Assembly: GCF_900109615.1 (NCBI RefSeq)
Contig: NZ_FOIX01000001.1
Location: forward strand, 558,001-622,000
Length of the DNA: 64,000 nucleotides
Direction of reading: 5' to 3'
From: Kaistella antarctica
GTDB taxonomy: Bacteria; Bacteroidota; Bacteroidia; Flavobacteriales; Weeksellaceae
Shown here one piece after another: positions 29,925 through 33,927 of this stretch. The position numbers and the translations under genes were made by a program. Below the pieces are notes generated by a model, which saw nothing but the letters and a program-made list of their open reading frames with translations, was not told where the DNA came from and made no database searches. Within the stretch, counting starts at the first letter, position 1, and each line of letters begins with the position of its first letter.

Positions 29925-31415
29925 TTAAGAAGTAGAGTGGCTCATCATATTGCCATCAATATTAACTTGAAGTCCCATAGCAATTTTCATCCCTAAATTA
30001 ATATTGGCCCGGAAGAAATGACACAACTGTCGATTGATGATTTCGTCTTTTTTTGGACCAGCAATTCCTTTCATCGAATTTACAATGTTATCGACTAAAT
30101 TTTGTCTTGCTTCATCGTTCATCGCATTGGTGTAAAGCAGTCCAGGTTGTGTGTAGTGATCATCGTCATTTTCATTTCGATTAAAATTCGCAACGTGATT
30201 ACTATCTAAAGTTTCTTCAAAATTTTTGTATTCCGCCAAAGGTGAAATCTGGTCAAAACTATTGGGGTAATAATTCGGAGCGTCTTTATACTGGCTTGAA
30301 TCTGCCATTGCACCGTCCCTTTGGTAATTGTTTACATTATACAAACATCGGTTCACTTCCAACAAATGTGCGTTGGCACCGACTCTGTAGCGGTGGGCAT
30401 CTGAATAAGAAAACAGTCTGCCTTGCAACATTTTATCTGGTGAAAAACTAATTCCATTGATTAAATTGCTGGGTGAAAAAGTAGCTTGTTCCACGTGCGC
30501 GAAATAATTGACAGGAATTTCATTCAGTTCCATTTGGCCAACTTCAATTAAAGGAAACTCGTCGTGAAGCCAAACTTTAGTAACATCAAACGGGTTCCAC
30601 CGAAATTCTTTTGCTTGCTCTTCAGTCATCATCTGAATGTAGAGCGTCCATTTCGGAAATTCGCCTGCTTCAATCGCGTTAATTAAATCTTCTTGCGCAA
30701 AATCAGGATTTTCTCCTTTCATTTTCACAGCTTCATTTTCGTTGAAGTTTTCAATTCCTTGGTTGGTTTTAAAATGAAACTTTACCCAAACTCTTTCATT
30801 AGTACTATTGATCATTGAAAAAGTATGTGATCCAAACCCATGCATGTGTCTGTAACCATGAGGCGTTCCACGATCAGACATCAATATTAAAACTTGATGC
30901 AGCGATTCAGGATTAAAACTCCAGAAATCCCACATCATTGTAGAACTTTTTAAATTGGTTTTTGGTAATCTTTTTTGGGTATGAATAAAATCGGGAAACT
31001 TTTTAGCGTCTTTAATAAAAAAGACCGGAGTATTATTCCCAACTAAATCCCAGTTTCCATCTTCAGTATAAAACTTCACGGCAAAACCGCGAGGATCTCG
31101 TTCGGTATCTGCACTTCCTTTCTCACCACCAACGGTCGAGAATCTTGTAAATATTTTGCAGGTGTTTCCTACATTTGAAAACAATTTGGCTTTCGTATAT
31201 TTTGAAATATCATGGGTTACGGTAAAGGTTCCGTAAGCGCCAGTTCCTTTTGCATGAACCACTCTTTCGGGAATTCTTTCACGGACGAAATGAGCTAAGT
31301 TTTCCTGTAAGATGAAATCCTGTACTAAAACGGGTCCTCGTGATCCTGCGGTTTGAGAATCTTCGTGCTCGTAATAAGGGTTTCCGGCAGCATTGGTTAG
31401 TTTGTGATCGCTCAT
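29925..31415 (-). CDS. katA: Catalase (monofunctional haem, clade 3)
   Basis: 496 residues from ATG 31415 (MSDHKLTNAAGNPYYEHEDSQ); an in-frame ATG at 31439 adds eight residues. Active-site His54 (RVVHAKGTGAYG), Asn128 (GNNTPVFF) and proximal haem ligand Tyr337 (RLFSYSDAHRYRVG) are all in place. The length and lack of a C-terminal flavodoxin-like domain put it with the small-subunit catalases. It detoxifies H2O2. It is divergent from oxyR, 90 bases apart start to start, which strongly suggests OxyR control. Confidence 0.96.
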   Translation of the reverse strand: MSDHKLTNAAGNPYYEHEDSQTAGSRGPVLVQDFILQENLAHFVRERIPERVVHAKGTGAYGTFTVTHDISKYTKAKLFSNVGNTCKIFTRFSTVGGEKGSADTERDPRGFAVKFYTEDGNWDLVGNNTPVFFIKDAKKFPDFIHTQKRLPKTNLKSSTMMWDFWSFNPESLHQVLILMSDRGTPHGYRHMHGFGSHTFSMINSTNERVWVKFHFKTNQGIENFNENEAVKMKGENPDFAQEDLINAIEAGEFPKWTLYIQMMTEEQAKEFRWNPFDVTKVWLHDEFPLIEVGQMELNEIPVNYFAHVEQATFSPSNLINGISFSPDKMLQGRLFSYSDAHRYRVGANAHLLEVNRCLYNVNNYQRDGAMADSSQYKDAPNYYPNSFDQISPLAEYKNFEETLDSNHVANFNRNENDDDHYTQPGLLYTNAMNDEARQNLVDNIVNSMKGIAGPKKDEIINRQLCHFFRANINLGMKIAMGLQVNIDGNMMSHSTS

Positions 31416-31477
31416 ATTGATGATTTTAATAAACCTCAAATTTATTTAAAAATAATCACAATATGGCAAAATCTAAG

Positions 31478-31485
31478 TATATTTG
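31478..31485 (+). promoter_or_regulatory. -7 element of oxyR in the katA-oxyR intergenic region
   Basis: TATATTTG fits TAnnTTTG and lies 20 bases before the oxyR ATG. The 90-base divergent region must also hold the katA promoter, for which I found no exact match, as might be expected of an activator-dependent promoter. Confidence 0.5.
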
Positions 31486-31505
31486 ACCTAGACTAAATTA
31501 ATCAA

Positions 31506-32459
31506 ATGAATATTCAGCAACTAGAATATCTTATCGCCGTAGATAAATATAAACACTTTGGTAATGCGGCTCAGGCTTGTTTTATTACGCAGCCAACCCT
31601 AAGCGCCATGATTCAAAAATTTGAAGACGAAATGGACGTGAAGATTTTTGACCGAACCACGCATCCAATCCGTACGACTGATGTCGGAATTCAATTAATC
31701 GTTGAGGCAAAAAAAGTCATGGATGCGATTAATGAGTTAAAGGGCAAAGCGAACTCACTTAATAATGTGCTGGCAGGAAAACTTAATTTAGGAATACTGC
31801 CGACGATTTCTGGGTTCATTCTCCCCACCGAGATTTTTGATTTTCTTAAAAATCATCCTAAGATAGAACTCAACGTAAAAGAAATGACGACCGACAGTAT
31901 CATCAAAAGTTTAAAGACTGGTGAGCTGGATGCCGGAATAATTTCGACACCTTACACCGCCGCGAATGAATTTTATCATGACTTTCTGTTTAACGAAGAA
32001 TTGATGCTTTATGCAGCAGACGACAGTGACGGTGGAAAAAAAGACAGTTTCGTAGTTCCCGAAGATATCGATGTACAGAAAGTGTGGCTCCTTGAGGAAG
32101 GCAACTGCTTAAGAACTCAATTTGAGAATATCTGCGAACTCAAAGAAAATTCGGTCAAACCTAAAAATTTGGAGTTTGTCGGGTCAAGTATTCACACCTT
32201 AATACAACTTGTAGATAAACTCGGTGGAATTAGTATTCTACCAGAACTTGCCGTAGAACAATTGTCTGACAAACAGAAAGAAAAAGTGAAGAGATTCCGA
32301 AAACCATTTCCGTATCGGGAGATTTCAGTGATCTACTACAAACCTACTTACAAGCAGAAAATCTTAGATGAATTAATTAAATTTATTTATGATTCTTTGA
32401 AAACGAATCTAAATTTCAATAAAAATCCGGAAGATTATATCGGCGTAAAACCGCAATAA
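31506..32459 (+). CDS. oxyR: OxyR, LysR-type peroxide-sensing regulator
   Basis: 317 residues. N-terminal LysR winged HTH (MNIQQLEYLIAVDKYKHFGNA, about 1-60) and a LysR substrate domain. It carries the redox pair Cys201 and Cys210 in EGNCLRTQFENIC, matching the E. coli OxyR Cys199-x8-Cys208 spacing. Oxidation of this pair to a disulfide activates peroxide-defence genes. Divergence from katA confirms the assignment. It is followed by the metK leader. Confidence 0.95.
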   Translation: MNIQQLEYLIAVDKYKHFGNAAQACFITQPTLSAMIQKFEDEMDVKIFDRTTHPIRTTDVGIQLIVEAKKVMDAINELKGKANSLNNVLAGKLNLGILPTISGFILPTEIFDFLKNHPKIELNVKEMTTDSIIKSLKTGELDAGIISTPYTAANEFYHDFLFNEELMLYAADDSDGGKKDSFVVPEDIDVQKVWLLEEGNCLRTQFENICELKENSVKPKNLEFVGSSIHTLIQLVDKLGGISILPELAVEQLSDKQKEKVKRFRKPFPYREISVIYYKPTYKQKILDELIKFIYDSLKTNLNFNKNPEDYIGVKPQ

Positions 32460-32480
32460 TTTTTAACATCGAAAAAAAAT

Positions 32481-32510
32481 TTTGCACTTTGATAAATAGT
32501 GCTAAATTTG
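32481..32510 (+). promoter_or_regulatory. metK promoter with internal palindrome
   Basis: TTTG (32481-32484), 18-base spacer, TAAATTTG (32503-32510). The spacer holds an inverted repeat GCACT...AGTGC (32484-32488 and 32498-32502), extended to TTTTGCACT / AGTGCTAAA with one mismatch, a possible operator overlapping both promoter boxes. Transcription would start just before the SAM-II-like element. Confidence 0.6.
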
Positions 32511-32525
32511 CACTACTAATTTACG

Positions 32526-32576
32526 GGAGGAAAAATTTGAACTGATTGCAACCTCAATAAAAAATGCTAAAACCGA
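32526..32576 (+). ncRNA. SAM-II-like riboswitch candidate upstream of metK
   Basis: The leader holds the SAM-II signature elements in order: P1 arm GAGG (32527-32530), ATTTGAAC, TTGCAA (32546-32551), the P1 partner CCTC (32552-32555), ATAAA, and GCTAAAAC (32566-32573). Spacings match SAM-II examples I remember. The P2 pseudoknot pairing is not convincing by eye, so it may be the Bacteroidota 'long loop' variant or a relative. Position before metK, whose product makes SAM, gives an obvious feedback role. An Rfam search with the SAM-II models would decide. Confidence 0.65.
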
Positions 32577-32646
32577 TTTTTCTCTTTTAGTTTCTTTTGC
32601 AATCACCAATTTTACTTCTATTTTTTAATTAAAAAACAATAGAAAT

Positions 32647-33927
32647 ATGTCTTATTTATTTACCTCTGAGTCGGTTTCCGAAGGGCACCCAGATAAAGTG
32701 GCTGATCAAATATCTGATGCTTTAATCGATAATTTCCTGGCGCATGACCCGACTTCAAAGGTGGCTTGTGAAACATTGGTGACAACAGGTCAAGTGGTTT
32801 TGGCCGGAGAAGTGAAATCTAAAGCTTACCTCGATGTACAGGATATTGCCCGACGTGTGATTAATAAAATTGGTTATACCAAAGGAGAATATATGTTCGC
32901 AGGTGATTCGTGTGGCGTTATTTCGGCAATTCACGAACAGTCTCCCGATATTAATCAAGGAGTAGATCGCGCTCATGAAGATGATGATTTCGAAACCAAA
33001 GCCAATAAGCAAGGTGCCGGAGATCAAGGAATGATGTTTGGATATGCAACCAACGAAACCGAAAACTATATGCCGCTGGCACTGGATTTAGCGCACACAA
33101 TTCTTAAAGAACTAGCAATTTTAAGAAGAGAAAACGACGCCATTAAATATCTTCGTCCAGATGCAAAATCGCAAGTGACTATTGAATATTCTGATGATCA
33201 TAAACCCGTAAGAATTGACTCGATTGTAGTTTCTACCCAACATGACGATTTCGGTAGCGAAGAAGCAATGTTGGCGAAGATCAGAAAAGACATGATTGAG
33301 ATTCTTGTTCCAAAAGTAAAAGCAAAACAGAAAAAAGAGATTCAAGATCTTTTCAACAATCAGATTAAATTCCATATTAACCCAACTGGTAAATTTGTAA
33401 TCGGTGGTCCACACGGAGACACAGGTTTGACAGGAAGAAAAATCATCGTCGATACCTACGGTGGAAAAGGCGGTCACGGTGGTGGCGCCTTCTCTGGAAA
33501 AGACCCTTCAAAAGTAGATAGAAGTGCTGCTTATGCCGTTCGTCATATGGCGAAAAACTTAGTTGCAGCAGGAGTTGCAGATGAAATTTTGGTTCAGGTG
33601 TCTTACGCGATTGGCGTTGCCGAACCTTGCGGTTTGTATATTAATACGTACGGAACTTCAAAATTAGATTTACCAGACGGAGAAGTTGCAGAACGAATCC
33701 AGAAGATTTTTGATTTAAGACCTTACGCCATTGAGCAAAACTTGAAATTAAGAAATCCTATTTATCAGGAAACTGCTTCTTACGGCCACATGGGCAGAGA
33801 AAATTACGTTGCTGATAAAACCTTTCGAGGCGCGAATGGAGTAGAGTTCACCATTAAAGATTTAGAATTCTTTACTTGGGAGAAACTCGACAAAGTAGAG
33901 GAGATTAAGAAAGAATTTAATTTGTAA
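32647..33927 (+). CDS. metK: S-adenosylmethionine synthetase (methionine adenosyltransferase)
   Basis: 426 residues. Three-domain MetK with [19 protein letters not shown] at the N-terminus (ATP/metal His and Asp), [16 protein letters not shown], and the phosphate-binding [25 protein letters not shown] loop region (read as motifs [15 protein letters not shown] then SKVDRSAAY). It makes SAM from ATP and methionine, with K+ and Mg2+. Residues 255-300 also contain [20 protein letters not shown]. Preceded by a 137-base leader with a SAM-II-like element and followed by an intrinsic terminator. Single-gene unit. Confidence 0.97.

Follow-up and report, generated by a model that had tools for sequence, protein, structure and literature searches.

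A SAM-II long-loop riboswitch in the metK leader of Kaistella antarctica, with a putative expression platform shared among Bacteroidota

Background

The product of the metK gene makes S-adenosylmethionine (SAM), and the metK leader of Kaistella antarctica found in the window (i.e., the whole 64-kb stretch of DNA that was analysed) raises two questions: does it carry a SAM riboswitch of a known class, as an initial annotation of the sequence had proposed, and through which downstream strands could such a riboswitch act on the gene?

SAM-II was already noted in the Bacteroides group (PMC1273637), and SAM-II long loops were listed for Bacteroidetes and marine samples, with details placed in an additional file (PMC2864571). 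Alpha-proteobacterial SAM-II platforms are described as terminators or as a Shine-Dalgarno sequence held in the pseudoknot (PMC9373788), and PMC2258182, in which SAM-II mechanisms were at that time experimentally unestablished, describes the general sequestor/antisequestor logic. Bacteroidota ribosomes are reported to fail at Shine-Dalgarno recognition (PMC9976891), so the usual riboswitch block of translation should not apply to them, and adenines at -3, -6, -12 and -13 together with low structure are reported to favour initiation in F. johnsoniae (PMC6847099). The reference list of PMC7366714 includes a preprint on Bacteroides TPP riboswitches regulating transcription or translation; thus, translational riboswitch control has been proposed in this phylum before. 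Within open-licence PMC papers, taken without their supplements, no description of a long-loop expression platform was found.

Methods

Leaders were located with a custom pattern in 183 of 228 loci, i.e., 126 of 131 family loci (themselves 131 of the 138 Weeksellaceae matches; the pattern missed L105, L106, L118, L119 and L120), 44 of 80 loci found by MetK and 13 of 17 new loci from the order search. These 183 leaders were collapsed by shared 6-mers into 103 clusters (55 from the family and 48 others), and the per-genus test used N-free leaders only, with one leader for each of 29 genera in ten draws. The alignment A1 comprises 46 leaders out of 68 distinct ones, which had themselves been preselected for TTTAG shortly downstream of the aptamer. 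In the swap test, the pairing of each leader with itself was compared with that of swapped leaders after removal of row and column means, using 5000 permutations and the metK coding sequence as control. For folding (37 C, no pseudoknots), the bound state was represented by the leader downstream of the aptamer folded alone and the free state by the whole leader.

Results

The metK leader carries a SAM-II long-loop aptamer

The Rfam covariance search aligned positions 1-60 of the 60 positions of RF01726, that is, the full length of the model, which Rfam describes as a SAM-II riboswitch aptamer (SAM-II long loop), to the metK leader (Table 1). The match is far beyond chance, since its E-value reached the tabulated level for both strands of the 64-kb window and 3.6e-11 in a 501-base search; no other Rfam match within the window reaches gathering level, and the 3.13 Mb genome contains no second match to RF01726. 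The initial annotation had read a SAM-II-like riboswitch from the P1 arms, TTGCAA (32546-32551), ATAAA (32557-32561) and GCTAAAAC (32566-32573), all of which lie where it had placed them, and its guess of a Bacteroidota long-loop variant agrees with the family now identified. Among the SAM-II, SAM-V and long-loop models that it had named for a covariance search, RF01726 alone gave a significant match: SAM-V (RF01826) stayed below threshold (17.5 bits against a cut-off of 41), and at E up to 10 the 501-base search listed 8 matches, which included neither the alpha-proteobacterial SAM-II (RF00521) nor any further SAM riboswitch family. The aptamer belongs, as an ordinary member, to a known family and represents no new aptamer class.

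Table 1. Coordinates within the window of the features of the metK locus, including the proposed pairings
Feature	Position	Strand	Description
Bacteroidota-type promoter	32482..32510	+	TTG 32482-32484, 18 nt, TAAATTTG 32503-32510
SAM-II long-loop aptamer (RF01726)	32521..32580	+	60.2 bits, cut-off 44, E 4.6e-9
P1 helix GAGG/CCTC	32527-32530 with 32552-32555	+	encloses the long loop L1
P2 pseudoknot	32542..32575	+	P2a 32548-32550 with 32565-32567; P2b 32542-32544 with 32573-32575
Inner hairpin of the proposed SAM-free fold	32566..32591	+	GCUAAAA 32566-32572 with UUUUAGU 32585-32591
Putative sequestor strand	32590..32599	+	would pair with 32637-32646 before the start codon
Putative anti-aptamer strand	32597..32619	+	32597-32605 exact complement of L1 32543-32551; remainder in interrupted pairing with 32526-32539
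Local hairpin before the start codon	32616..32644	+	32616-32626 with 32633-32644; -4.1 kcal/mol
A-rich translation initiation region and start codon	32633..32649	+	A at -3, -6, -12, -13
metK, read as SAM synthetase, 426 aa	32647..33927	+	ORF; ATG at 32647

The position of the aptamer between a full promoter and the SAM synthetase gene, as initially described, also holds, with a Bacteroidota-type promoter upstream and metK downstream. The P1 arm is preceded, at a distance of no more than 45 nt, by the motif TAnnTTTG in 179 of 183 leaders (99 of 103 clusters; 4.5% in shuffles), and a sigma-70 consensus scan of the leader region gave no promoter, as expected for Bacteroidota. In F. psychrophilum this motif is located at -12 to -5 (PMC9723704), and the same placement here would put the transcription start near A32515. 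The open reading frame downstream, whose start codon lies 67 nt beyond the RF01726 match, reads as SAM synthetase, with a MetK identity of 71-82% to related genomes (594 relatives among the candidate stretches). Directly upstream of the leader, two genes stand back to back at 29925-32459, one on each strand, which we take from their translations to be catalase-like (-) and an OxyR-like LysR regulator (+).

On A1, 90.8% of the cells of the P1 helix are paired; one column is unpaired in 16 of the 46 rows because the alignment places the rows of genus g9 one base out of register. With the placement of P2a and P2b that we assume to follow the three-dimensional SAM-II fold, P2a (GCA with UGC) is paired throughout the 46 aligned leaders, and P2b retains C32542-G32575 and G32544-C32573 around a mismatched U32543.C32574. 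The doubt first raised about P2 pairing was thus accurate and comes down to this single U.C mismatch in the middle pair of P2b. This helix is CUG/CAG in most aligned leaders, its middle pair is broken (U.C) in 6 of 46, all from the host genus, and its outer pair is preserved in one relative through a double change from CG to AU. The mismatch is a real but minor trait of one species group.

The aptamer is widespread in the host family. RF01726 scored above its cut-off in 136 of 148 sampled Weeksellaceae genomes and in 29 of 33 genera, and of 296 genomes sampled from the order, 202 gave a match at E <= 0.001, which in 199 exceeded the cut-off. The K. antarctica copy has the features of this family, i.e., the RF01726 match, P1 and P2, the metK gene and a Bacteroidota host. 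Within the Weeksellaceae, genus g17 has lost the metK riboswitch: RF01726 occurred in 0 of its 9 genomes, and in the five genomes inspected for their metK leaders (L230-L234) these are short, with TAAATTTG (TAAATTTA in one) roughly 30-40 nt before the start codon. A search at E up to 1 gave no SAM-riboswitch match in four of these five genomes or in two aptamer-less genomes of other genera.

A downstream strand complementary to the aptamer covaries between species

The long loop contains UGAUUGCAA (32543-32551), to which UUGCAAUCA (32597-32605), located downstream of the aptamer, is fully complementary. With L1 alone as the target of this putative anti-aptamer strand, 40 of 103 clusters reached p < 0.05, and the swap gave a mean z of -0.59 with 15 of 103 at p < 0.05, and this narrow target was rejected. 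In short-leader clades the strand pairs with P1 and the beginning of L1, so the target was widened from L1 to the whole 5' half of the aptamer (plus the 8 nt before it), a choice made after the sequences were seen. With this wider target, the mean energy of pairing between the 5' half and the leader it belongs to was -17.7 kcal/mol over the 103 clusters, and 52 of the 103 reached p < 0.05 against dinucleotide shuffles. Own pairs were 2.83 kcal/mol better than swapped pairs (z -11.2 and -11.0 in two runs), and a signal as strong occurred in 0 of 5000 permutations, a number that overstates independence since clusters and genera are related; the metK coding control gave z 0.1. The signal was found both within the family (z -7.5, n = 55; control -0.9) and outside it (z -6.8, n = 48; control 0.7), and ten draws of a single leader from each of 29 genera gave a mean z of -5.9. 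Both the shuffles and the coding controls speak against composition alone as the cause of the anti-aptamer complementarity. The copy in the window (L001) reached -17.2 kcal/mol with a shuffle p of 0.040, and its swap residual of +0.2 means that it contributes no covariation signal of its own.

Lineages differ in which part of the 5' half is matched: it is GAUUGCAA in the relatives of the window and AUUUGAC in several others (L150, L164 and L165). In our reading, these shifts point to a conserved function with a moving target for the anti-aptamer strand. In four leaders from the MetK search (L144, L150, L162 and L164), the anti-aptamer strand opens with a putative small hairpin (GACG-N4-CGUC) followed by AAAUC; this hairpin would compete with the anti-aptamer strand, and the output may be unlike that of the host family.

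The host genus offers a further observation linking the two strands. Among its 21 rows in A1, 7 leaders have an altered P2b strand (CCG, ACG or CAA instead of CAG), and all 7 (the window, at 32574 and 32600, and the relatives L036 and L040-L044) carry a C opposite G32548, giving a G-C pair, whereas the 14 leaders with CAG all carry a U at this anti-aptamer position, giving G.U. A weaker aptamer here accompanies a stronger anti-aptamer strand, which would perhaps tune the threshold of the switch; the pattern could also reflect a single clade.

The minimum-energy fold of the leader contains the inner hairpin, which is also the only helix that RNAalifold finds on A1, where its presence in 46 of 46 rows is a biased count because these rows were preselected for TTTAG. 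As a phylum-wide trait the inner hairpin found no support, with 10 of 103 clusters at p < 0.05 and a mean z of -0.46; TTTAG occurs in 34 of the 103 clusters, where 17.3 would be expected. Neither this hairpin nor the anti-L1 helix displayed double changes on A1.

In the host family, a second strand matches the bases before the start codon

In the family, a strand that follows the aptamer and precedes the anti-aptamer strand is complementary to the bases just 5' of the AUG, as in UUUCUUUUGU/ACAAAAGAAA (genus of the window), UUCCUUUU/AAAAGGAA (g9 and g32), UGUGUGUUUU/AAAACACACA (g5, L004) and UUAUUCUU/AAGAAUAA (g21, L021). The swap test over the 55 family clusters gave z -5.2, with 0 of 5000 permutations as strong and z 0.5 for the control (codons 4-10); one leader per genus gave a mean z of -5.1 (control -0.06), and outside the family the signal was weaker (z -2.8, 16 of 5000; control -0.7). 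Against shuffles, 8 of 55 clusters reached p < 0.05 compared with 6 of 55 for the control. Since shuffles fail to separate the helix from its control, the evidence consists of matching between species and not of the strength of any single helix. For this strand it is the swap tests that speak against composition alone, the shuffles (8 versus 6 of 55) leaving helix and control unseparated.

On A1, the start-site helix is paired in 92.5% of cells, and double-sided changes affect 4 pairs and 19 cells, compared with shuffled means of 2.2 pairs and 7.7 cells (as high in 38 and 0 of 500, respectively); these counts favour clades that align, a selection from which the family swap and per-genus tests are free. 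Slid registers reached at most 66.8% paired and 5 doubly changed cells. Further pair types numbered 11 against 10.4 in shuffles (210 of 500), i.e., not above shuffles, and the 15 rows that carry the main double change, UA to CG, belong to g9 (13) and g32 (2) only. Comparison across species shows an aptamer accompanied by putative downstream pairings that covary.

The putative sequestor of the window shares 32590-32591 with the inner hairpin and 32597-32599 with the anti-aptamer strand. Its start-site helix has 9 pairs and one U.U mismatch (-6.7 kcal/mol, p 0.19), nonsignificant alone. The local hairpin before the start codon is the best fold of the aptamer-less leader and is predicted to be a stronger cover than the 32590-32599 helix; its 5' arm shares 32616-32619 with the anti-aptamer strand, and it is also present in the whole-leader minimum-energy fold.

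Folding predicts a start region that opens in the free state in the host family

Over the 55 family clusters, the predicted unpaired probability from -12 to +3 was 0.44 in the bound state, 0.59 in the free state and 0.47 with a shuffled aptamer. The free state exceeded the bound state in 43 of 55 clusters (Wilcoxon p 6e-7 versus bound and 5e-8 versus shuffled), and in the other 12 folding predicted no opening of the start without SAM. The difference was larger in the 23 leaders of the clusters nearest to the window (bound 0.28, free 0.62, shuffled 0.36; free above bound in 22 of 23), and the start of the window itself gave 0.39, 0.61 and 0.37-0.38, respectively. Outside the family, folding displayed no difference between bound and free (0.50 and 0.53; 26 of 48; p 0.24), and the free state exceeded the shuffled aptamer in 31 of 48 clusters (p 0.008). 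A start-site helix of -6 kcal/mol or lower occurred in 24 family clusters; in 17 of these, at least 3 nt of its upstream arm were shared with the SAM-free fold, and in 7 the overlap was 0-2 nt. Whole-leader folding of the window gave z -1.38, with 19 of 200 shuffles equally stable. The copy in the window is a modest example of the platform. Covariation and folding together suggest that the anti-aptamer strand is general, and they support the hiding of the start site in the host family only.

Discussion

Our results suggest that the SAM-II long-loop riboswitch probably reduces metK translation at high SAM. We infer that this copy binds SAM, that control runs in this direction and that the controlled step is translation and not transcription. 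In the proposed mechanism, the 5' half of the aptamer would pair, without SAM, with 32597-32619 and the GCUAAAA strand with 32585-32591, and these helices would occupy the strands that could cover the start, leaving the A-rich region before the AUG open and metK being made. With SAM, the P1/P2 pseudoknot would form and the downstream strands would be released to cover the bases before the AUG, either as 32590-32599 with 32637-32646 or as the hairpin 32616-32644, and translation would drop. Under this model, L1, the GCUAAAAC strand and 32637-32645 are expected to be protected in the presence of SAM, with 32597-32605 becoming exposed. At the level of the group, we lean towards the view that Bacteroidota long-loop SAM-II riboswitches share the anti-aptamer platform, to which the Weeksellaceae would couple a sequestor hiding an A-rich start that lacks a Shine-Dalgarno sequence.

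The aptamer could instead control transcription, with SAM favouring a terminator and the anti-aptamer helix serving as the antiterminator, as proposed for many alpha-proteobacterial SAM-II. Putative terminators are reported in most SAM-II leaders (PMC1273637, PMC2258182, PMC6061858), and here a U-rich stretch and an A-U hairpin do follow the aptamer. However, the hairpin before the U-runs is built from the GCUAAAA strand of the aptamer itself, so that it would form without SAM, which is the wrong way for feedback, and covariation links the downstream strand to the bases that precede the AUG. In addition, the scan of 32400-32700 found 0 terminator-like sites (0.1 expected by shuffles), and as it demands GC pairs it could miss an A-U rich terminator. 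Taken together, we regard transcriptional control as unlikely.

A slightly less probable reading accepts that the aptamer acts and takes the downstream complementarities as functionless products of AU-rich composition and shared descent, control being exerted, e.g., through RNA stability or by the aptamer alone. The leaders are indeed AU-rich, the window copy is weak alone, start-site pairing is no better than its control by shuffles, and the opening of the start is unpredicted outside the family. Composition and descent are at odds, however, with swap tests whose controls are near zero, with the anti-aptamer shuffles (52 of 103) and with the 0.47 obtained with shuffled aptamers compared with 0.59. 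It is also conceivable, at a far lower probability, that the weakened P2b leaves this copy and five others of its group with poor or altered ligand binding: U32543.C32574 occurs in the window and five congeners, and disruption of P2 in A. tumefaciens metA is reported to have abolished the SAM response (PMC1273637), but the remaining core is intact, the Rfam score is well above the cut-off and the downstream gene is still metK. Translational control by SAM remains the reading that we prefer.

Compared with the SAM-II long loops of RF01726 (PMC2864571), the K. antarctica copy is alike in its full-length match, the order of its elements, the metK gene and the host phylum, and differs by one P2b mismatch. 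The 60 positions of the Rfam model are limited to the aptamer, and no description of the downstream platform was found in this model or in the main text of PMC2864571. The alpha-proteobacterial SAM-II (RF00521), as described in PMC1273637 and PMC9373788, shares a SAM-binding P1 with a P2 pseudoknot and feedback on methionine/SAM genes; its model has no match here, and its terminator or Shine-Dalgarno sequence contrasts with the separate strand opposite an A-rich start that is proposed here. SAM-V (PMC6061858) is similarly described as a translational SAM switch with a similar pseudoknot core, but it covers a Shine-Dalgarno sequence adjoining the aptamer, whereas the start codon here is well separated from the match. 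The sequestor/antisequestor riboswitches described in PMC2258182 follow the same logic, in which the ligand breaks the antisequestor and the sequestor covers the start. Here, in contrast, an A-rich region without Shine-Dalgarno sequence would be covered, and the antisequestor would pair with most of the 5' half of the aptamer, beyond P1.

Within the literature searched, the expression platform appears undescribed, and the comparison between leaders supports it well. The finding joins a known aptamer to a new base-by-base model of its output, in which two competing sets of putative helices covary over 29 genera and one set would cover the adenines reported to promote initiation in F. johnsoniae (PMC6847099). 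This output model for metK could be tested by a few compensatory mutations in Flavobacterium. If true, the metK leader would represent a translational riboswitch suited to ribosomes without Shine-Dalgarno recognition.
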